Of a stretch of 35,701 nt of DNA, positions 633 through 10,130 are shown piece by piece (the first letter of the stretch is position 1; each line of letters starts with the position of its first letter). The notes below the pieces were generated by a model. It was not told the origin of the DNA. It worked only from the letters and a program-made list of their open reading frames with translations, and searched no databases. This stretch comes from Geobacteraceae bacterium (lineage in GTDB: Bacteria; Desulfobacterota; Desulfuromonadia; Geobacterales; Pseudopelobacteraceae). The stretch is from NCBI GenBank assembly GCA_021286935.1, contig JAJTBI010000023.1, positions 1-35,701 of the forward strand. The letters run 5' to 3'. The position numbers and the translations under genes were made by a program.

Positions 633-668
633 CAGGATGGAGGAAGCTAGCAGCGGGCCTCCATCCTG
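633..668. terminator. Perfect 11-bp inverted repeat between convergent genes
   Basis: CAGGATGGAGG at 633-643 pairs exactly with CCTCCATCCTG at 658-668 around a 14-base loop. The structure overlaps the hybP stop codon and lies 31 bases past the stop of the Cys-rich gene. Neither side has a clear T run, so it may be a bidirectional, weak or factor-assisted terminator, or an mRNA 3'-end stabiliser. The function is inferred. Confidence 0.45.
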
Positions 669-1129
669 ATTCCTTCCGCCTGCAGCTCCTGCTGGATCAT
701 AGTGGCCAGTTGCGGCAGACGCACGGCCAGCTCCGGTGACAGCTCAATCCCGGCCTCATAGCTCTTGGGAACCACCCCGAACAGGGTGACCTGCTCCGGG
801 CAGCGGCCACGGATCTCGGACAGCAGTAGCATCTCCTGAATCCCTAACTGGTGGGGGGACATCTTGATCGGGATGGTGCGACCGATAAAGGCATCCTTCT
901 CATAGCGGTAGAGCTCTCCCGGCTCACCGGCGGTGGTGACCACATCCACCATGTAGACCCGGTCTGCCTCCTCCAGCTTGTGGGAGGCCATGAAACCCAG
1001 GGTACCGCCGTCGTACAGCTCTACATCGTCATCAAAGTTGTAGTTGTCGGCCAGATACTTGACCAGATGGACCCCGAAACCCTCGTCGGACAGCAGCAGA
1101 TTACCTGCACCAAAAATCAGAACTTTCAT
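647..1129 (-). CDS. hybP: [NiFe] hydrogenase maturation protease
   Basis: This is a nickel-sensing endopeptidase that removes the C-terminal tail of the hydrogenase large subunit after the Ni-Fe centre is assembled in the cytoplasm. The 160-residue length fits the HybD/HyaD (M52) family. The N-terminal GAGN...DEGFG motif is present, and the three metal-binding residues known from E. coli HybD are at the same positions: E16, D62 and H93 (in the MSPHQLG stretch). It is the last gene of the hyb operon, 237 bases after hybL, with an inverted-repeat element in the gap. Its substrate is almost certainly the adjacent HybL, which keeps a cleavable tail after its final His. Confidence 0.95.
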   Translation of the reverse strand: MKVLIFGAGNLLLSDEGFGVHLVKYLADNYNFDDDVELYDGGTLGFMASHKLEEADRVYMVDVVTTAGEPGELYRYEKDAFIGRTIPIKMSPHQLGIQEMLLLSEIRGRCPEQVTLFGVVPKSYEAGIELSPELAVRLPQLATMIQQELQAEGIRMEARC

Positions 1130-1366: not shown

Positions 1367-3046
1367 TTACACCACTTTCACCTTGGTGATCTCTTTACTT
1401 TCCGGATCAATCGTATGCACCGCACAGGCGATGCAGGGGTCAAAGGAGTGTACGGTACGCAGTACCTCCAGGGGCTGATCCGGTTTGGCCACCGGGTTAC
1501 CCAGCAGCGAGGCCTCGTAGGGACCGGCATTGCCTTCGGCATCCCGCGGTGAGGCGTTCCAGGTGGAGGGGACCACGGCCTGATAGTTCTTGATCTTCTT
1601 GTCCTTGATCACCATCCAGTGGGACAGCACACCACGTGGTGCCTCGTGGAAGCCGACGCCGCGATGTTCACCTGACGGGATCTCGGTGTGGTTGGCATAG
1701 CTCTTGTCCCCCTTGCCGACGTTATCCACCAGCTTGTCCAGATACTCCAGCGACAGGTCAGACAGCAGGTGGGCACGGATGCCGCGGGCAGCCAGTCGGC
1801 CCATGGTGGAGTGCAAATCAGCTACACCAACACCGGCTGCCTTGCAGGTGCTGTCCACCAGCTTGCGCACCCGCTGGTTGCCGGCAGCATAGCCTGCCAG
1901 CAGTTGGGCAATCGGACCGACCTGGATCGGCTTGCCGTCAATCCGGGGCGCCTTGCACCAGGAATACTTGCCGTTTTCCTGGAAATCGGTGTAGTCAGGC
2001 TTGGTCTCACCTTCCCAGGGGTGCAGTACTGATTTGCCTTCATACCAGGCGCAGGCCACTGATTCCTTGATGCTGCCGATCAGCTGCTGGTCCTGATGGG
2101 TGCTGATCACACGGGCTTTGGCCACATCGCCGCCCATGATCAGACCGCCCGGCAGGGCAAAGCTGGTATTTTTGGTATCTTCCGGGAACTCAGGCACGGC
2201 CAGGTAGTTGACTACCCCTTTGCCATGTTTGAACCAGTCTTTGTAGGCCTTGCCGATCACCAGCAGGTCCGGGTAGTAGACCTTTTTGACAAACTCGCGG
2301 GTCTCGCTCATCAGCGCCCGCAGGTAGGCGATCCGCTCCATGTTGATCGCCGCCATGTTCTCCATGTTAAGCGCGGTTGCCACGCCACCCACGCAGAGGT
2401 TCTGGATATGGGGGTTCTTGCCACCCAGAATGGCCACTGCCTGGGCTGCCTTCTGCTGGTAGTCCAGCGCCTTCAGGTAGTGGGCCGTGGCGATCAGGTT
2501 GATCTCCGGCGGCAGGATCATGGCCGGATGGCCCCAGTAACCAGAGGCAAAGATCCCCAGTTTGCCGGAATCCACAAAGGCCTTCAGCCGCTTCTGGACA
2601 TCGCTGAACTCCTTCTCGCTGTTGCCGGGCCAGTCTGAGACCGACTGGGCTATGGAGGCGGCCTTCTTGGGATCTGCCTTGAGGGCCGAGACGATATCCA
2701 CCCAATCCAGGGCTGAGAGGTGATAGAAGTGGACGATGTGGTCCTGCACCGAATGCTGGGCCATGATGATGTTGCGGATGTACTGGGCGTTGAGCGGCAC
2801 CTCAACCTTGAGGGCGTGCTCCACGGAACGGATCGAGGAGATAGCATGCACCGTGGTGCAGACCCCGCAGAAACGCTGGGCATAGATCCAGGCATCCTGG
2901 GGCGGGCGATCTTTGAGAATGGTCTCAATACCGCGCCACATCTGGGCTGAGGACCAGGCCTTGCTGACCTGCCCGCCATTCACTTCAACATCGATCCGCA
3001 GGTGTCCTTCAATGCGGGTAATCGGGTCAATTGTAATTCGTGCCAT
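1367..3046 (-). CDS. hybL: [NiFe] uptake hydrogenase large subunit (precursor)
   Basis: This is the catalytic subunit that oxidises H2 at a Ni-Fe(CN)2CO centre. The 559 residues match Hyd-2 type large subunits. The N-terminal ligand motif RFCGVC supplies C60 and C63. The C-terminal motif DPCIACAVH supplies C538 and C541 and ends at H544. The 15 residues after H544 (TIDPESKEITKVKVV) are the expected tail removed by HybP. There is no signal peptide, as expected, because the large subunit is exported together with the Tat-bearing small subunit. The ATG is preceded by a GGAG-like site. It lies 170 bases after hybB, with a repeat element in the gap. Confidence 0.97.
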   Translation of the reverse strand: MARITIDPITRIEGHLRIDVEVNGGQVSKAWSSAQMWRGIETILKDRPPQDAWIYAQRFCGVCTTVHAISSIRSVEHALKVEVPLNAQYIRNIIMAQHSVQDHIVHFYHLSALDWVDIVSALKADPKKAASIAQSVSDWPGNSEKEFSDVQKRLKAFVDSGKLGIFASGYWGHPAMILPPEINLIATAHYLKALDYQQKAAQAVAILGGKNPHIQNLCVGGVATALNMENMAAINMERIAYLRALMSETREFVKKVYYPDLLVIGKAYKDWFKHGKGVVNYLAVPEFPEDTKNTSFALPGGLIMGGDVAKARVISTHQDQQLIGSIKESVACAWYEGKSVLHPWEGETKPDYTDFQENGKYSWCKAPRIDGKPIQVGPIAQLLAGYAAGNQRVRKLVDSTCKAAGVGVADLHSTMGRLAARGIRAHLLSDLSLEYLDKLVDNVGKGDKSYANHTEIPSGEHRGVGFHEAPRGVLSHWMVIKDKKIKNYQAVVPSTWNASPRDAEGNAGPYEASLLGNPVAKPDQPLEVLRTVHSFDPCIACAVHTIDPESKEITKVKVV

Positions 3047-3216: not shown

Positions 3217-4482
3217 TTATGCTTTTTCCACCACTTCATGCCCATGCAGCCGCGGCAGGACCGGGAACAGCTTGACCAGCACCTGGTAGCCCAGGATCTC
3301 GAACGCCACAATACCCACGGTGATCAGGATCTCGGCCAGTGATGGAAAGTATCGCCAGCCCTGGCCAGGGTTGAAACCGATCAGGTAGACATTGAAGCGG
3401 TAGAGGGCACCACCCAGCACGATCAACACCGCAGTAATGAACAACCAGCGGGGCGACTGGCGCCGTTTCTTGGAGAACAGCAGCAGTGAACCGCTGGCCA
3501 CCAGCCCGAACTCCAGCAGGAAGAAGGCGGAATAGAAATCTAACCGCAGGGCATTGGTCACCTGACCGCGCCAGACCAGATCGCCCACCACCACGCAGAG
3601 CCAGATGCTGGTCAGATATGGGGTAATTGAAGCCAGGCCGGAGAGCTGATCAATCTCAAAGGGGCGCTTGAAGCCGAATGAGGAGATGATTGACTCCAGA
3701 ATGGCAATGGAGTAGCCGATGAACATGCAGTTGATCAGGAACAAAAGCGGCAGGAAACCGGTATGCCAGAGCGGATACAGCTTGGTGGAGGCGATCAGCA
3801 GCAGCGACCCCAATGACGACTGGTGCATGGTGGGCAGGGTAATTCCCAACACGATCACAAAGATCAGCACCTTATCCAGCTTGGGTTGCAGCCAGACAGC
3901 CCGCTGACGTAGCTTCTCCAGTTTTTCCAGCACCACCGGGGTATCCAGGCCGAAACGGCCATGATACTTCTCCAGAAAGCCGCGGGCCCGGCTCCAGTTG
4001 GTTTCCTGCAGCCGGGTCAGCACTGCCGGTAAAAACTCGATCGCCAGTACCGTGGTGTAGGCCATAACGCACAACGCCACTTCAAACATGGCTGAATTGG
4101 CCTGCCACTGGGACGGCACAAAGAAATTATAGGCGTTCCAGGGGCGCCCCACATCCACCATGACCGAGAATCCGGCCAGACCGTAGCCAAACAGCGAGGT
4201 CAGCACCGCTGAACGGATCAGCGGGTGGTAATGCATCTTGTTGCGGATGTAGATCAGGATCGCCACGGCATACCCGCCGCAGGCAATGGCCGTACCGGTG
4301 GCCACGTCATAGGTAATCCAGATCCCCCAGGGATAGCCGTCACTCATGTTGGAGACAGCACCGATCCCCCAGATAAAGCGGACTGCAATCAGGGCAAAAC
4401 CGATCACCGCCAGGGTCAGCAGCACCCAGAAGGAGGGGGTCAGGATTTTGGCCCGGTGAATTTGATACTCATCGTGACTCAT
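3217..4482 (-). CDS. hybB: Hydrogenase integral membrane subunit, HybB/NrfD family
   Basis: This is a polytopic quinone-reactive membrane subunit expected to pass electrons from the HybA ferredoxin to the menaquinone pool. The 421-residue product has about ten hydrophobic segments, starting around residues 20-45, and fits the HybB/NrfD/PsrC family. I chose the ATG at 4482 (MSHDEYQ) because AGAGGGGGA precedes it closely. An upstream in-frame ATG at 4524 would add 14 residues but extend the overlap with hybA. With the chosen start, the gene overlaps the end of hybA by 14 bases, so translation is probably coupled. Confidence 0.93.
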   Translation of the reverse strand: MSHDEYQIHRAKILTPSFWVLLTLAVIGFALIAVRFIWGIGAVSNMSDGYPWGIWITYDVATGTAIACGGYAVAILIYIRNKMHYHPLIRSAVLTSLFGYGLAGFSVMVDVGRPWNAYNFFVPSQWQANSAMFEVALCVMAYTTVLAIEFLPAVLTRLQETNWSRARGFLEKYHGRFGLDTPVVLEKLEKLRQRAVWLQPKLDKVLIFVIVLGITLPTMHQSSLGSLLLIASTKLYPLWHTGFLPLLFLINCMFIGYSIAILESIISSFGFKRPFEIDQLSGLASITPYLTSIWLCVVVGDLVWRGQVTNALRLDFYSAFFLLEFGLVASGSLLLFSKKRRQSPRWLFITAVLIVLGGALYRFNVYLIGFNPGQGWRYFPSLAEILITVGIVAFEILGYQVLVKLFPVLPRLHGHEVVEKA

Positions 4483-5413
4483 TATTTTCCCCCTCTTCAG
4501 GTTTGTGGTCATCTGTATGACCATTCCCCTTCTTCATATTTCTGACAGCGATAAAGCAGAGTGTGCTGTACAGCGCAACCGGAGCGATAAACCCCTTGTA
4601 GATGGTGTGCTGAATCTTCTCAGAAAACTCGGCCGGTGCCTCTCCCTTCAGCTCCGGCAGGCCCAGCTTCTTAAACTGCAGTGCAGCCAGATAGAGGTGA
4701 TTGGTGCCGCCCAGTTCGTGCTCGCCATAGATATGGTTGACATACTGTTTGGGATGTTCGGCCAGCCGTTTTTTGGCCTCAGCCAGCAGGTCCTTACGCT
4801 TGCCAAACATGATCGCGCCGGTGGGGCAGACCTCGGCACAGGCTGAGATCCCCTTCTGCTTCAGATTGGTGTTTTTGCAGAGGTCACATTTCACAATCTG
4901 CGGGATCGCCTTTTCCCACTGGAACTTGGGGATGTTGAAGGCACAGGCCACCTGGCAGTAGCGACAACCGATGCAGGTATTCTTGTTGTAATCCACAATG
5001 CCGGTGATCTTGTCCTTGGTCATGGCGGAAACCGGGCAGACCGAGACGCAGGATGGCTTCTGGCAGTGCATGCAGGAGTACTTCACATAGGACCACTCCT
5101 TGGGAGAGTCTTTGACCAGCTTGATCAGGGTACGGGTGGAGCCGGACAGATCCTGGGGGGCATCCCAGAGCTTGTCAGGATCAAACTTGGCCTGTTCATA
5201 GGAAAGTGCCCCATAATCGCCATTCACCCGTTTGCAGGCTGACATGCAGGCCTTGCAGCCAACGCATTTGGTGGCATCGTACAGCATCCCCAGCTCTTCA
5301 TCATTAGCCCCGGCAACCGGGTGACCCGCCAGTGCCACAGCAGGCGCGGCCATCAACCCCGCACCGGCCAGACCTGCCAGTTTCAGGAATTCGCGCCTAC
5401 TCTTTTGGCTCAT
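4469..5413 (-). CDS. hybA: Hydrogenase-associated periplasmic four-cluster ferredoxin, HybA family
   Basis: This is an electron-transfer subunit linking the small subunit to HybB on the periplasmic side. The 314 residues begin with a Tat signal (SRREFLK at 5-11, hydrophobic stretch to the ALA at about 29). Cysteine groups of the CxxCxxCxxxC type follow (CVGCKACMSAC, CMHCQKPSCVSVC, CIGCRYCQVAC and CDLC...CAEVC), enough for four [4Fe-4S] clusters. Near the C-terminus a hydrophobic segment (APVALYSTLCFIAV) probably anchors it to the membrane. The ATG at 5413 is chosen because GGGAGG precedes it and the Tat motif sits at the right distance. It overlaps the end of hybS by 17 bases. Confidence 0.95.
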   Translation of the reverse strand: MSQKSRREFLKLAGLAGAGLMAAPAVALAGHPVAGANDEELGMLYDATKCVGCKACMSACKRVNGDYGALSYEQAKFDPDKLWDAPQDLSGSTRTLIKLVKDSPKEWSYVKYSCMHCQKPSCVSVCPVSAMTKDKITGIVDYNKNTCIGCRYCQVACAFNIPKFQWEKAIPQIVKCDLCKNTNLKQKGISACAEVCPTGAIMFGKRKDLLAEAKKRLAEHPKQYVNHIYGEHELGGTNHLYLAALQFKKLGLPELKGEAPAEFSEKIQHTIYKGFIAPVALYSTLCFIAVRNMKKGNGHTDDHKPEEGENNESR

Positions 5414-6527
5414 GGTCGCCTCCCTGCTCATGCTCAGCAGGTTGATCCGCATCAGGCAGTTTGCGGGCCAGCATAGCCCCGGCCCCCAGCGCTGCACCGG
5501 CTGCCAGACCCAATACGCCGGTGGTAACCGGGCTTGCCCCTTTGCCCTTCTCCTTCAGATCCACCGGTGCGTAGCTGTCAAACGGCGTCGGCTCGTGGAT
5601 CTGGACTTTATCGGCAATGGCGGTGCGGAACAGGATATCCGGCTCGGTACAGCCAATACAGGGGTGCCCGACAGAGACCGGCCAGACCCCGGCATCGTTA
5701 AAGCGCTGCACGGAACAGTTGGCATAGGTGGCCGGCCCTTTGCATCCCAACTTGTACAGGCAGTAACCCTGGGCATGGGTTTCGTGACCATAGGCCTTGG
5801 CAAAGCGCCCGGCATCAAAGTGTGGTCTGCGCTCACAATGCTCATGAATCCGGCGGCCATAGGCAAACTTGGGACGACCCATATCATCCAGCTCGGGCAG
5901 CTTTTTAAAGGTCAGGAAATACAGCACCGTGGAAAGCAGGTTGTAGGGTGAAGGGGGACAGCCGGGGATATTGATGATCGGCTTGTCCTTGATGATATCC
6001 CGCACACCCACGGCACCGGTGGGGTTGGGTGGAGCGGCCTGAATACCTCCGTAACTGGCACAGGTACCGACCGATATGATGGCCGCTGCCCCTTCAGCAG
6101 CCTTGCGCAGCGACTCCAGGGCGGTCTTGCCACCCACCTTGCAGTAGATGCCGTTTTCCTTGGTGGGGATCGCCCCTTCAACAATCAGGATATACTTGCC
6201 ATGGTTGGCCTTCATGGAATCATGCAACGACTTCTCAGCCTGGTGACCGGAACCGGCCATCAGGGTCTCGTGGTAATCAAGGGAGATCATCTCCAGCAGC
6301 AGCGTAGCCGGGGCCGGGTGATTGGCCCGCAGCAGCGATTCAGAGCAGCCGGTACATTCCTGGAAGTGCAGCCAGATCACCGGCGGTCGATCCGGTGCCT
6401 GGGCAGCCTCTGCCACCTTGGCTGCCATGCTGAACGGCAGCCCCATGACTGCTGTTGTTGCCACACAGGTCTTGATAAAATCCCGGCGACTGATGCCGTT
6501 GCCGAAAAAATGCCCTAGCTGACTCAT
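5397..6527 (-). CDS. hybS: [NiFe] uptake hydrogenase small subunit
   Basis: This subunit carries the Fe-S relay that takes electrons from the Ni-Fe site. The 376 residues start with a Tat signal (SRRDFIK, twin arginines 14-15, cleavage probably near residue 42). The proximal cluster motif ECTGCSE gives C58 and C61, followed by GTCASYGG and PGCPPSP. The medial and distal cluster ligands lie in the HEHCERR, CLYKLGCKGP, NCSV and HPCIGCTEPD stretches. The C-terminus has a glycine/alanine-rich hydrophobic helix and a charged tail, the usual membrane anchor. The ATG at 6527 has GGAGG six bases upstream; an in-frame ATG at 6689 would bury the Tat signal and is rejected. It is the first gene of the operon, behind a sigma-54 promoter. 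Confidence 0.96.
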   Translation of the reverse strand: MSQLGHFFGNGISRRDFIKTCVATTAVMGLPFSMAAKVAEAAQAPDRPPVIWLHFQECTGCSESLLRANHPAPATLLLEMISLDYHETLMAGSGHQAEKSLHDSMKANHGKYILIVEGAIPTKENGIYCKVGGKTALESLRKAAEGAAAIISVGTCASYGGIQAAPPNPTGAVGVRDIIKDKPIINIPGCPPSPYNLLSTVLYFLTFKKLPELDDMGRPKFAYGRRIHEHCERRPHFDAGRFAKAYGHETHAQGYCLYKLGCKGPATYANCSVQRFNDAGVWPVSVGHPCIGCTEPDILFRTAIADKVQIHEPTPFDSYAPVDLKEKGKGASPVTTGVLGLAAGAALGAGAMLARKLPDADQPAEHEQGGDHEPKE

Positions 6528-6559
6528 TCGTACCTCCGCAGTAGTTTGCAGGTTTATCC

Positions 6560-6576
6560 TGTATACAAACTGTATC
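6560..6576. promoter_or_regulatory. TGTATACA palindrome plus TGTATC near hybS transcription start
   Basis: The octamer TGTATACA (6560-6567), itself a palindrome, is followed by TGTATC at 6571-6576. The same pair recurs as TGTATACA at 6681-6688 and TGTATC at 6701-6706. The proximal copy falls just downstream of the start predicted from the sigma-54 promoter at 6590-6606, where a repressor could act. No regulator is assigned. Confidence 0.3.
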
Positions 6577-6589
6577 GAGCTGCGGAGAG

Positions 6590-6606
6590 AGCAGGAGTTA
6601 TGCCAA
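6590..6606 (-). promoter_or_regulatory. Sigma-54 promoter for hybSABLP
   Basis: Read on the minus strand, the sequence is TTGGCATAACTCCTGCT. The GG and GC dinucleotides are separated by exactly 10 bases, and TTGGCA and CTGC agree with the TGGCAC / TTGC consensus apart from one mismatch in each element. Transcription would begin near 6579, about 50 bases before the hybS ATG. An NtrC-family activator gene lies next to it. Confidence 0.68.
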
Positions 6607-6668
6607 CATGGACAAACTAGTAAATACAGCATGTTAAGGCAAACGCGCAGGTCGTTTACGGCACGGTC

Positions 6669-6695
6669 GGACAAATTTACTGTATACATTTGTCC
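6669..6695. promoter_or_regulatory. Putative enhancer site: 8-bp inverted repeat upstream of hybS
   Basis: GGACAAAT (6669-6676) and ATTTGTCC (6688-6695) are perfect reverse complements separated by 11 bases. A related half-site, GGACAAAC, lies at 6610-6617. The palindrome centre is about 100 bases upstream of the predicted sigma-54 start, a typical position for an activator of the NtrC class. The obvious candidate protein is the product of 6930-8279, but that link is inferred. Confidence 0.55.
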
Positions 6696-6740
6696 TGAAT
6701 TGTATCATTTTGTCTTTGCACTGCAGCAACCAGAAACCGA

Positions 6741-6912
6741 TTGGCCGCGAAGGAACACAAAGAGCGCAAAAAACAAACCATATATCCTGAAAATCTACGC
6801 CTTATTATTGCGTTAAACCAATTATCGCTTCATCTGTTTCTGTGCCTGAATTTTTGTATGATTCCTGTTTTAAGACTTTTCTTTGAGTTCACTGTGCCCT
6901 TTTGCGGCCAAA
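6741..6912. repeat. Intergenic inverted-repeat element, copy 3 (upstream of regulator gene)
   Basis: The left end is TTGGCCGCGAAGGAACACAA and the right end is CCCTTTTGCGGCCAA, matching the other copies at 1150, 3071 and 13701. With the sigma-54 promoter and palindrome it accounts for the ~400-base space between hybS and the regulator. Its right end lies 17 bases before the regulator ATG, so it forms most of that gene's leader. Confidence 0.7.
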
Positions 6913-6929
6913 TTGATTTGGAGTAGTCC

Positions 6930-8279
6930 ATGCCCCGTATCCTGATCTGTGATGATGAAGAAGGTATCCTGCGTTATCTGGCCAAGCTCCTTAAAACACA
7001 AGGCTATAGTATAGAGACATTCAGCAGTGGCACAGCGTTGCTGGCACGGCTGCAGGCACCTGTTGCAGAACCGGCTGACCTGTTACTGCAGGATGTACGT
7101 CTGCCGGACATCAGTGGCATTGAGATCCTGAAACAGGCACAGCAGTTGCAACCTGCCATGCCGGTGGTGGTGATGACCGCCCACGGTACGGTGGATGACG
7201 CCGTGCATGCCATCCGGCTGGGGGCCTACGATTACGTGATGAAGCCGTTTCCCAAGGAGAAAATCCTGGGGGTGCTGGCCAAGGCGTTGGAGCACCATCG
7301 ACTGGCTGATGAAAACCGCCGTCTGCGTGAAGAATTGCAGCGGGGCGGAGAAGACAGCTCGATTGTCTTCTCCTCTCCCCGTTTCCGGGAGGTGTATGAC
7401 CTGACCCTGCAGGTGGCCTCAAGCGATGCCAACATCCTGATTCTGGGCGAATCAGGCACCGGCAAGGAGTTGATTGCCCGCACCGTGCACAGCAATTCCG
7501 GCCGTCGTGAACGGCCCTTTATCTCGCTTAACTGTGCCGCACTGTCGGATTCGCTGCTGGAAAGCCAGCTCTTTGGCCATCTGCGTGGTTCCTTTACCGG
7601 CGCGATCATGAATCAGAAGGGGCTGCTGGAAGAGGCGGATGGCGGCACCCTGTTTCTGGATGAAATCGGTGACGTCTCACCTACGGTGCAAGCCAAACTG
7701 TTGCGGGTGATTCAGGAAAAGGAGTTCATGCCGATCGGCTCCACCAAGCCAAGCACCGTTGACGTCCGTTTTGTGGCTGCCACCAACCGCGACCTGCAAC
7801 TGGAGGTTGCTGAAGGCCGCTTCCGGGAAGATCTCTACTACCGTCTGAATGTTATTTCCCTGACCCTGCCTCCCCTGCGGGAACGGCCAGAAGATATAGA
7901 ACCGCTGGCCCGCCACTTTGTGCGCCGCTTTGCTGCGAGGATGAAAAAAGAGCTGCATGGTATTGACCCGGATGCCTTGCTCTGCATGACCCGCTACCAC
8001 TGGCCTGGTAATGTACGTGAACTGGAGAATGTGATCGAGCGGGCCGTGATCCTGGCCCAGGGGCATCTGCTAACTTCAGACCTGCTACCGGTTTGCAGCA
8101 GGACCACTCCACTTCGGGTTGATGAAGCCACACCGCTGGTTTCGCTGGAGGCACTGGAGCGTCAACATATTCTGGGGGTCTACAAACAGACCGGCTTTCA
8201 CAAGAGCAAGACCGCCGAGATCCTGGGGGTATCCCGTAAGACGCTTGATCGCAAACTGGCGGAATACCAGGCTCAATAA
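6930..8279 (+). CDS. Sigma-54 dependent response regulator, NtrC family
   Basis: This is a transcriptional activator that uses ATP hydrolysis to open sigma-54 promoters. Residues 1-120 form a receiver domain with the acidic pair D8/D9, phosphoacceptor D55 and K105. A central AAA+ domain (about 145-370) has Walker A GESGTGKE and Walker B GGTLFLDEIG. The sigma-54 contact loop reads GSFTGA rather than the usual GAFTGA. The C-terminal ~45 residues carry a Fis-type helix-turn-helix (KTAEILGVSRKTLDRKL). The ATG follows GGAG. It is divergent from the hydrogenase operon and stop-to-start coupled (3 bases) to a histidine kinase. Control of hyb is likely by location and promoter type, comparable to HoxA/HupR systems, but not shown. 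Confidence 0.93.
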   Translation: MPRILICDDEEGILRYLAKLLKTQGYSIETFSSGTALLARLQAPVAEPADLLLQDVRLPDISGIEILKQAQQLQPAMPVVVMTAHGTVDDAVHAIRLGAYDYVMKPFPKEKILGVLAKALEHHRLADENRRLREELQRGGEDSSIVFSSPRFREVYDLTLQVASSDANILILGESGTGKELIARTVHSNSGRRERPFISLNCAALSDSLLESQLFGHLRGSFTGAIMNQKGLLEEADGGTLFLDEIGDVSPTVQAKLLRVIQEKEFMPIGSTKPSTVDVRFVAATNRDLQLEVAEGRFREDLYYRLNVISLTLPPLRERPEDIEPLARHFVRRFAARMKKELHGIDPDALLCMTRYHWPGNVRELENVIERAVILAQGHLLTSDLLPVCSRTTPLRVDEATPLVSLEALERQHILGVYKQTGFHKSKTAEILGVSRKTLDRKLAEYQAQ

Positions 8280-8282
8280 CCC

Positions 8283-10130
8283 ATGAACGCCACCCCGACC
8301 TCTATCCGCAGACGACTGCTGCTGACCACCCTGCTGCCACTGGTAGCAGCCTTGCTGGTCTGCTGGCTGGCTGGCAATTACCTGATCAACGCCCGTGTGG
8401 CCGGACAGACTCAGGAAGAGGCCCGCAGCGACCTTGGTACAGCCAGAGAACTGTACCAAGGAGAGTTGAACCGGCTGGCTGAAGGGCTGCAGCTGATCAG
8501 CCGCAGCCCGGATCTGTCCCGCAGTCTGCAAGGGCCAGCGGCCTCCGAACTGGCCCGACTGCTGCCACTGCTGTCCGGCAGCCGCAGCTTCAGCTTTCTG
8601 ACCGTGGTGGATCGTTACGGTCAGGTCCGCTACCGGGCTGCCAACCCGGAACGGACCGGTGATACCCTGCGCCATCTCAAACCAGTGGCCGAGGCCCTTG
8701 CCGGACGACCCAGCCAGGGTAGCATGTTGTTTTCCAGCCTGCAGGCCGGCCAGGAAAACCCTTTACTGCCGGACCAGATGCTGGTTCCACTGCTTCCTTC
8801 ACAACATGCCGTGCCAACCAGCAAGACCGCTGAACAGCGCGGCCTGTTTCTGATTGCCGCCACGCCGATTTTAGGTGCTGATGGAGAGATCAATGGTGCC
8901 ATGCTGGCCGGTCAACTGCTCAATAATAATGAACAACTGGCAGACCGGATAACCCGCGTTATTGCGCCACAACAGCAGGATGGCACATTACGGGAAACCG
9001 CCACCATTTTTCTTGATGACGTCAGGATCGCCACCACGGTTACCGATGAAAACGGTCAACGGGCCACCGGCACCAGGCTTTCTGCTGAGGTGGCAAAACA
9101 GGTACTACACCAGGGGGAACGCTGGATTGCTCCGGCCTATGTCCTGCATGAGCGCTATTTTGCCGCCTATGAACCGCTCCGTGACCCGGATGGCACGGTG
9201 ATCGGTGCTTTGTATGTGGGCCTGCCTGAGCGTCCCTACCTCCATTTACGCAACAACCTCAACCTGACCTTTGCCGCCCTGCTGCTGGTCCTGACCCTGC
9301 TGGCAGTGGGGCTGACCACCAGCCTGGGCAAGCGGCTTGGGCAACGGGAAGAGGAGATCAATACCCTGAACCAGACACTTGAACAAAAGGTACAACAGCG
9401 GACCATTGAGCTGGAGGAAAAGAGCCGACAACTGCTGGAGACGGAAAAAGAGCTGGCCCGCACTGAGCGGCTGGCAGAGCTGGGGATGCTCTCTGCGGGT
9501 GTGGCCCATGAGATCAACAACCCGCTGGCCATTATCCGGGGCAATGCCGAACTGCTGCAGATGTCGATCCCTGCAGATGCAGAGGATCAGGAAGAAGTTA
9601 GCGAGATCCTGACCCAGGCCGGCCGGATCAACCGGATCACCTCCAGTCTGCTGACCCTGGCCCGCCAGGACAAACGTCAGGTTAGTCACTTTCCTTTGTC
9701 GGATCTCCTGGATGAGATCCTGGACCAGATCGGTCATCAGATTCCGTTGGCAACGTACCATGTAGAGCGCAGCTACCAGCAGACTGCCATCCAGCTGGAG
9801 GCGGATCGGGAGCAGCTGCGTCAGGTCTTCACCAACCTGATCCTGAACGGACTACAGGCCATGGAGAATGAAGGGCGGCTTACGATCAGCGCAGAGGCTG
9901 ATCCTGAGGCGACCTGTTCCATTACCATTGCCGATACCGGCCCCGGTATCGACCCGGAGCAACAGGAACGGCTGTTTTCACCGTTCTTTACCACCAAACA
10001 GAACGGCACCGGCCTGGGGCTTGCAATATCCTGGGGCATTATCCGCAACCACGGTGGCACCATTGAGGTTTTTAGCGCCCCTGGCTGCGGCGCACGCTTT
10101 ACGGTCACCCTGCCGTCATCACCCACCTGA
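8283..10130 (+). CDS. Membrane sensor histidine kinase, partner of the upstream NtrC-type regulator
   Basis: The 615-residue protein starts 3 bases after the regulator stop. A transmembrane helix at about residues 10-32 and another at about 325-348 bracket a ~290-residue periplasmic sensor region of the cache type. A coiled-coil linker (about 355-395) leads to a HisKA domain with H409 in the motif AGVAHEINNPLAIIRG. A HATPase domain follows, with NLILNGLQAM (N box), DTGPGID (G1), FSPFFTTK and GTGLGLAIS (G2). There is no receiver or PAS domain. By architecture it resembles NtrB/DctB-type kinases that work with sigma-54 activators. The signal is unknown; a small-molecule ligand bound in the periplasm is more likely than H2. 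Confidence 0.92.
   Translation: MNATPTSIRRRLLLTTLLPLVAALLVCWLAGNYLINARVAGQTQEEARSDLGTARELYQGELNRLAEGLQLISRSPDLSRSLQGPAASELARLLPLLSGSRSFSFLTVVDRYGQVRYRAANPERTGDTLRHLKPVAEALAGRPSQGSMLFSSLQAGQENPLLPDQMLVPLLPSQHAVPTSKTAEQRGLFLIAATPILGADGEINGAMLAGQLLNNNEQLADRITRVIAPQQQDGTLRETATIFLDDVRIATTVTDENGQRATGTRLSAEVAKQVLHQGERWIAPAYVLHERYFAAYEPLRDPDGTVIGALYVGLPERPYLHLRNNLNLTFAALLLVLTLLAVGLTTSLGKRLGQREEEINTLNQTLEQKVQQRTIELEEKSRQLLETEKELARTERLAELGMLSAGVAHEINNPLAIIRGNAELLQMSIPADAEDQEEVSEILTQAGRINRITSSLLTLARQDKRQVSHFPLSDLLDEILDQIGHQIPLATYHVERSYQQTAIQLEADREQLRQVFTNLILNGLQAMENEGRLTISAEADPEATCSITIADTGPGIDPEQQERLFSPFFTTKQNGTGLGLAISWGIIRNHGGTIEVFSAPGCGARFTVTLPSSPT

Follow-up and report, generated by a model that had tools for sequence, protein, structure and literature searches.

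A predicted formate-responsive two-component switch facing the hyb hydrogenase operon in Geobacterales

Introduction

Syntrophy relies on two diffusible electron carriers, hydrogen and formate. In the open-licence literature searched, no account was found of what makes Geobacter-like bacteria decide to produce their uptake enzymes. This question is raised by a 35,701-nucleotide stretch of a Geobacteraceae bacterium (the window; contig JAJTBI010000023.1 of the 3.2-Mb draft genome GCA_021286935.1, here C86), in which the hydrogenase operon hybSABLP lies on the minus strand and the genes of a response regulator (6930–8279) and a sensor kinase (8283–10130) diverge from it. Which signal switches on this operon, and through which sites? 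We consider it rather probable that the pair at 6930–10130 does so by means of a periplasmic formate sensor, an operator at 6669–6715 and a sigma-54 promoter at 6590–6605. Formate would bind the periplasmic Cache sensor of the kinase, a phosphate would pass from the kinase to the NtrC-type regulator, and the regulator, bound to the tandem operator, would reach the predicted promoter by DNA looping and activate, rather than repress, hybSABLP. The sequence features behind this proposal are the conserved divergent arrangement of the genes, an operator and a promoter box at a fixed distance from each other, operators that covary with the recognition helix, and a formate-type module with three putative ligand residues.

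Operator and promoter upstream of hybS

hybS and the features upstream of it are as follows.

5397–6527, minus strand: hybS, hydrogenase small subunit with Tat signal, first gene of hybSABLP (Pfam; NCBIfam TIGR00391 over cut-off)
6590–6605, minus strand: predicted sigma-54 promoter of hybS, TGGCATAACTCCTGCT; a box of 9–11 of 12 positions occurs in 46/46 hyb promoters
6669–6675, minus strand: operator unit 3, an inverted TTTGTCC, one palindrome arm
6681–6695, minus strand: operator unit 2, GGACAAATGTATACA, 20 bp on from unit 1, the other palindrome arm
6701–6715, minus strand: operator unit 1, AGACAAAATGATACA, from the consensus of 46 hyb promoters

The initial annotation had placed a sigma-54 box ahead of hybS, and TGGCATAACTCCTGCT is indeed present at 6605–6590 of the minus strand with GG-N10-GC spacing. 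The perfect palindrome that it had reported, GGACAAAT-N11-ATTTGTCC, was likewise found at 6669–6695; its centre (6682) lies about 155 nt upstream of the hybS ATG at 6527, a start consistent with the reading frames of relatives, and about 100 nt upstream of the start implied by the −12 element. Both features could be chance matches when the window is viewed alone, as each arose in 12–14% of shuffles of the 402-bp intergenic region (279/2000 held a box matching 9 or more of the 12 consensus positions, and 234/2000 a perfect inverted repeat of 8 bp whose spacer was 20 or less), and 19 boxes of equal quality occur in the whole window. A tandem 14-mer at 20 bp was rarer than either (5/500 shuffles). 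Thus, the window alone did not place box and palindrome beyond chance, but comparison of genomes changed this verdict. The comparison used 46 genomes having a hybS of the same type, in all of which the best GG-N10-GC box downstream of the operator scored 9–11 of 12, and 45 of which gave an operator score above 12 when the test genome was left out; the exception, G057, has a sub-threshold site (score 3.6) before hybS with one extra base between the units. A search pattern for the operator, adapted to the other genera and allowing up to 2 mismatches, gave 36 matches in 35 of 76 genomes and none in the reversed control, and all 36, as read from their coordinates, adjoin hybS, the small-subunit gene of a second hydrogenase, or the regulator gene. 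Given this conservation, a chance explanation is very unlikely, and we give practically no weight to the idea that box and palindrome are both accidental.

In the hyb direction, the operator reads RGACAAAATGATACA, N5, RGACAAA- and then an inverted TTTGTCC-like arm. The palindrome had been proposed as the enhancer site, which stands insofar as its arms are operator units 2 and 3; the operator, however, is larger, and the palindrome by itself is not its conserved core. Its expected conservation in relatives was found in part, both arms being kept in the genus of the window and the inverted arm being weaker elsewhere (TTGTTT). The palindrome was therefore rejected as the whole operator, because the inverted arm is strong only in that genus and the tandem direct repeat is general. 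At locus L054 the two arms have changed together (AGACAAA/TTTGTCT). The pattern tuned to other genera had no match in the 15 genomes of the window's genus; a looser tandem pattern gave a single mismatch-free match in the window's genome, at hyb, and one further place at 2 mismatches versus 12 control matches.

The distance from operator to box was fixed in 44/46 hyb promoters. Measured from the operator start, it was 109 bp in 9/9 promoters of the window's genus and 127–134 bp in 35/37 others, with the exceptions of 120 bp (G055) and 344 bp (G007); for G071, where the first-picked box scored equally and lay 176 bp on, the box at 109 bp was chosen by hand. The 109 bp of the window falls within the range of some 80–150 bp upstream of a sigma-54 promoter at which NtrC-type activators have their enhancers. 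Helical phasing, considered from spacings of 109, 130 and ~141, was rejected: a Rayleigh test on 9 distinct hyb values gave R 0.41 and P ~0.23, and 6/32 spacings from the named loci L185–L232 were off-pattern (75 twice, 155, 162, 270 and 344).

The repeats might instead constitute a sigma-70 promoter and an autoregulatory site of the regulator gene. In other genera the block toward the regulator can be read as TTGMTT-N17-TATCAT, and the site is kept at regulator genes lacking an adjacent hyb (G023 contig C11, G057, G064 and G065, partially G068). Where the two genes are apart or separated by a long gap, however, the operator stands also, or only, before hybS (G001, G002, G005, G016, G026 and G055), and in G064 it precedes a dehydrogenase-like gene that is unlinked to the regulator. 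We therefore regard this explanation as improbable and retain the hyb enhancer, to which autoregulation may be added: the latter is likely because, in most relatives, only a short distance separates the operator from the start of the regulator gene itself.

As a precedent for the promoter, a sigma-54 promoter of Geobacter sulfurreducens fdnG was shown by primer extension, and the RpoN regulon of that species has the consensus TTGGCACGGTTTTTGCT (PMC2725144). The passages of this paper that we consulted identify neither an activator nor an operator or sensor of fdn, and the hyb genes did not come up in a term search of the main text.

Regulator family and operator classes

The regulator and its putative DNA-reading helix are encoded here.

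6930–8279, plus strand: NtrC-type response regulator (REC, AAA+ with GSFTGA, HTH_8; Pfam hits over cut-off)
8232–8255, plus strand: codons of the recognition-helix signature SRKTLDRK (residues 435–442), which covaries with operator class

All domains of an NtrC-type activator were detected with Pfam, that is, a REC domain with the phospho-acceptor Asp, an AAA+ sigma-54 domain and a Fis-type HTH. The acceptor D55 is invariant in 10 aligned members. The loop GAFTGA, carried by 76/80 family members, appears here as the one-residue variant GSFTGA, as in 4/80. The best NCBIfam matches, AtoSC and ZraSR, share the domain order of the regulator and the kinase core; the scores, however, stay far below the equivalog cut-offs (459.8/714 bits for AtoC, 415.2/760 for ZraR and 234.5 vs 646 for AtoS). 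Homologues range from 95% identical, the closest among named loci being that of Trichlorobacter thiogenes, to paralogues of 57%, and 57 of the 76 genomes of the family have a match at E ≤ 1e-125. The scan of named genomes kept 80 of 110 confirmed loci, with no record titled G. sulfurreducens among the 80.

What do these regulators face? Among 83 members with flanks, 67 face a hydrogenase (45; hyb in 40 and a second hydrogenase in 5) or a formate-dehydrogenase-like operon (22; two molybdopterin operon kinds, 12 and 10), and 16 have neither within 2.6 kb. Both molybdopterin kinds are likely formate dehydrogenases, judging from their Tat, Mo-Fe4S4 and molybdopterin domains, their HybA- and NrfD-like partners, and a frame split at TGA that was read as selenocysteine.

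The operator units correspond to the recognition helix. Regulators with the SRKTLDRK helix (class A) go with the hyb-type operator, those with SRRTLDRR (class B) with RGACAGTTTTGCACA-type units, and 7/11 TRKTLDRK-like ones (class C) with GTATCAAAAATATAC-type units; the 20-bp register is shared by all three. On exclusion of the test genome, operator class equalled helix class in 62/74 loci (41/48, 14/15 and 7/11, respectively); the remaining 12 gave no site and none was mis-assigned, and mono-nucleotide shuffles of the upstream regions gave 0/370 hits. Nine of the 83 regulators, having another or no helix class, were not counted. When whole genera were left out, the values were 40/48, 14/15 and 2/11 with one cross-call; class C is heterogeneous, 4/11 having no site in the former test and 8 having none in the latter (2 assigned, 1 called A), a poor result ascribed to the few training sites that remained.

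The operator thus appears to follow the helix and not the enzyme. Of 16 named loci that combine an SRKTLDRK regulator with a dehydrogenase-like operon, 12 have the hyb-type site, seven Geomonas loci and one of Citrifermentans included, and four have none; at L176, one of the 12, the dehydrogenase gene lies at a distance of 1.5 kb. The second hydrogenase is found with an SRKTLDRK helix and hyb-type operator at L080 and L095, and with an SRRTLDRR regulator and RGACAGTTTTGCACA-type operator at L045, L102 and L108. On a tree of 125 regulators, built by a quick method with the DNA-binding part left out (6 without helix class and 25 without target not counted), the target type, hydrogen or formate, changed at least 6 times and the helix class at least 5 times. 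In G064, a draft 92% complete in which no hyb match was found, an operator (score 20) and the strong box TGGCACACATGTTGCT 139 bp on stand before the formate-dehydrogenase-like gene on contig C28, and the regulator is on contig C117. No such operator was found in four other dehydrogenase-like upstream regions of the window's genus, which belong to more distant types (33–54% identity); a dehydrogenase of close type in that genus (L257) lies at a contig end.

Consequently, the link between regulator pair and hyb that had been inferred from the window gains support from conserved gene order, from a conserved operator and promoter at near-invariant spacing, and from the covariation of operator and helix across paralogues. 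As a separate observation, in G. sulfurreducens deletion of GSU1771 raised GSU0470 and GSU0471, a sigma-54 regulator and a kinase, together with hybS (GSU0782) on both supports (PMC10599522).

Two drafts of the window's genus (L054 in G069, L067 in G066) have a different DNA-binding end or a shortened frame of the regulator and keep the hyb operator; these alterations could be assembly errors. Further paralogous pairs with the helix ARRTLDRK and ~57% identity were observed at L046, L114, L115 and L116, where no adjoining hydrogenase or formate-dehydrogenase-like gene of the types sought was found.

Sensor kinase and its putative formate module

The kinase gene contains the following.

8283–10130, plus strand: sensor histidine kinase with a double Cache between two long hydrophobic helices and no HAMP
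8916–9254, plus strand: sCache_3_3 module with the formate signature R248, T251 and T264 (PF17202, motif and structure match)

The membrane position of the kinase is a reading of its hydrophobic segments. The sCache_3_3 module (PF17202) scored 110.7–113.8 bits against a cut-off of 28.8. Because fold searches with the whole kinase returned matches to the kinase core, the sensor was modelled alone, which gave a double Cache domain of pLDDT 92.2. Two formate complexes, 8py0 and 8py1, ranked first and second by Z (18.3, with rmsd 2.0 over 146 residues, and 17.1) and third and ninth by Foldseek E-value, and phmmer gave E 2.5e-8 and 3.9e-5 for this comparison, so that the modelled module has the fold of formate-bound sCache_3_3 members. 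Its R-x2-T-x12-T motif has the spacing of R142, T145 and T158 in PacF, calculated from the PacF residue numbers, and changes at these residues affect formate binding (PMC12501870). Formate has also been assigned to a gut sCache_3_3 domain that carries the formate residues reported (PMC12415202). An alignment of the window's sensor with 51/59 loci having a full-length sensor showed the signature as R,T,T in 43 and R,T,S in 7, and lost in 2. The module is hence predicted to bind formate. PacF, Atu0526, 8py0 and 8py1, which share the fold and the R-x2-T-x12-T residues, are chemotaxis receptors, whereas the present module belongs to a histidine kinase, where it follows a CitA-like module and takes the membrane-proximal place.

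The same pair, operator and promoter could alternatively control hyb in response to another small carboxylate, such as citrate or a C4 acid, bound at the CitA-like distal module, with the formate module being structural. We judge this unlikely, since R,T,T/S is kept in 50/52 sensors, hydrogenase- and dehydrogenase-linked alike, and the highest Z belongs to a formate complex. It is less probable still that the kinase senses H2 or redox as in HoxJ/HoxA, the Cache module being a relic: NtrC-type regulators of the HoxA/HupR kind do control hydrogenases in other bacteria, but the double Cache is confidently modelled and paralogous pairs face formate-dehydrogenase-like operons. The proposal that a metabolite rather than H2 is the input is accordingly supported and was sharpened to formate, as the module resembles formate-binding sCache_3_3 domains and keeps their residues, and the double Cache between two long hydrophobic helices agrees with the expected difference from the HoxA-type input.

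Since paralogous pairs stand before formate-dehydrogenase-like operons in relatives, the family would report periplasmic formate, possibly as a sign of available one-carbon and hydrogen electron donors. Formate-grown G. sulfurreducens had HybL levels 4.7-fold above those on H2 and 25.6-fold above those on acetate, a result described as unexpected by its authors (PMC7894505); if the proposal is true, a formate switch before hyb would explain this rise. Several points weigh against it. No match to the likely formate dehydrogenase of relatives was found in the window's genome, and formate would therefore be a proxy signal there or be used by another enzyme. The formate-type module is proximal, in contrast to PacF, and a different carboxylate could be bound by the distal module. 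A tie with DctB, the Foldseek ranks and contrary proteome values slightly lower our confidence in the formate model and in the wider picture given next. A wider picture is offered only tentatively, at slightly less than even chance: a family of paralogous two-component systems with periplasmic formate sensing may exist in Geobacterales, every pair matched to an operator code of its own, and may drive the respiratory complexes that take up H2 and formate, and the organism of the window may read formate as a proxy of H2, turning on Hyb without a matching formate dehydrogenase.

The kinase of the window's genus has no HAMP domain: one was absent from all 52 listed kinase homologues at ≥61% identity and present in all 68 at ≤51% (precomputed Pfam lists); the kinase alignment comprised the window and 39 of the 120 listed homologues. 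The only other sCache_3_3 match in the genome (L251, G000 contig C100) is likely a chemoreceptor and keeps R-x2-T-x12-T, making it a candidate formate chemoreceptor.

Comparison with known systems

FhlA of E. coli is a formate-responsive sigma-54 activator that controls hydrogenase and formate dehydrogenase; it is itself the formate-binding protein, acts in the cytoplasm and lacks a receiver domain. The present regulator, in contrast, is of REC type, its N-terminus being Response_reg with no Pfam match to GAF, the ligand-binding domain that FhlA has there, and would work with a predicted periplasmic formate-sensing kinase in the service of periplasmic uptake enzymes. HoxA/HupR, with HoxJ/HupT, receives H2 input through a sensor hydrogenase and a soluble kinase. 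It resembles our regulator as an NtrC-family response regulator acting on hydrogenase operons, but the adjacent kinase here has a double Cache in place of a soluble H2-coupled partner (a regulatory hydrogenase elsewhere in the genome was not sought). The formate-sensing NtrC-type switch would thus combine known kinds: FhlA by function, HoxA by target and sCache_3_3 formate receptors by sensor. Sigma-54 control of hydrogenase as such is not new, because NiFe hydrogenase subunits are listed among the sigma-54 targets of Proteobacteria in a 2025 comparison (PMC12316311). No published account of the operator code, the paralogue family or the predicted formate input was found in the open-licence literature searched. 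The family provides a natural series of regulator–operator pairs, in which specificity residues are readable from the covariation of helix and site.

Other features of the hyb operon

The remaining genes of the operon were assigned as follows.

4469–5425, minus strand: hybA, iron-sulfur subunit (NCBIfam PRK10882, 396.6 bits, cut-off 263)
3217–4524, minus strand: hybB, NrfD-type membrane subunit (NCBIfam PRK10881, 581.5 bits, cut-off 450)
1367–3046, minus strand: hybL, NiFe hydrogenase large subunit (Pfam NiFeSe_Hases, E 1.5e-224)
647–1129, minus strand: hybP, hydrogenase maturation protease (Pfam HycI; TIGR00072 over cut-off)
6561–6566, minus strand: GTATAC element in the hyb leader, present in 42/46 hyb promoters

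HybA and HybB resemble the E. coli-type hydrogenase 2 (HybOABC) in exceeding the NCBIfam cut-offs, but the small and large subunits fall under the equivalog cut-offs (461.2/659 and 791.8/969 bits). The GTATAC element occurs in 42/46 hyb promoters, in 34 of them at exactly the same offset, compared with 35/2300 shuffled controls, and follows the −12 box directly in most other genera. In the window's genome, a search for the GTATAC-box pattern (up to 2 mismatches), which has matches also in reversed controls, gave 40 places versus 9 in the control, none at hyb among the matches listed. A repressor site specific to hyb is no longer the favoured interpretation, because the element also follows the −12 of other sigma-54-like boxes, namely, among the matches listed, those of a small-protein operon (L233–L238) and a TRAP transporter (L239). 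Most members of the window's genus have the element ~20 bp farther downstream, as though their hyb promoter had shifted two turns in the upstream direction. The element was also observed in 1/7 class C loci and after the −12 in 13/14 class B loci with a site, the 14th facing neither enzyme, and five of these 13 carry TTGAT in place of TTGC at −12.

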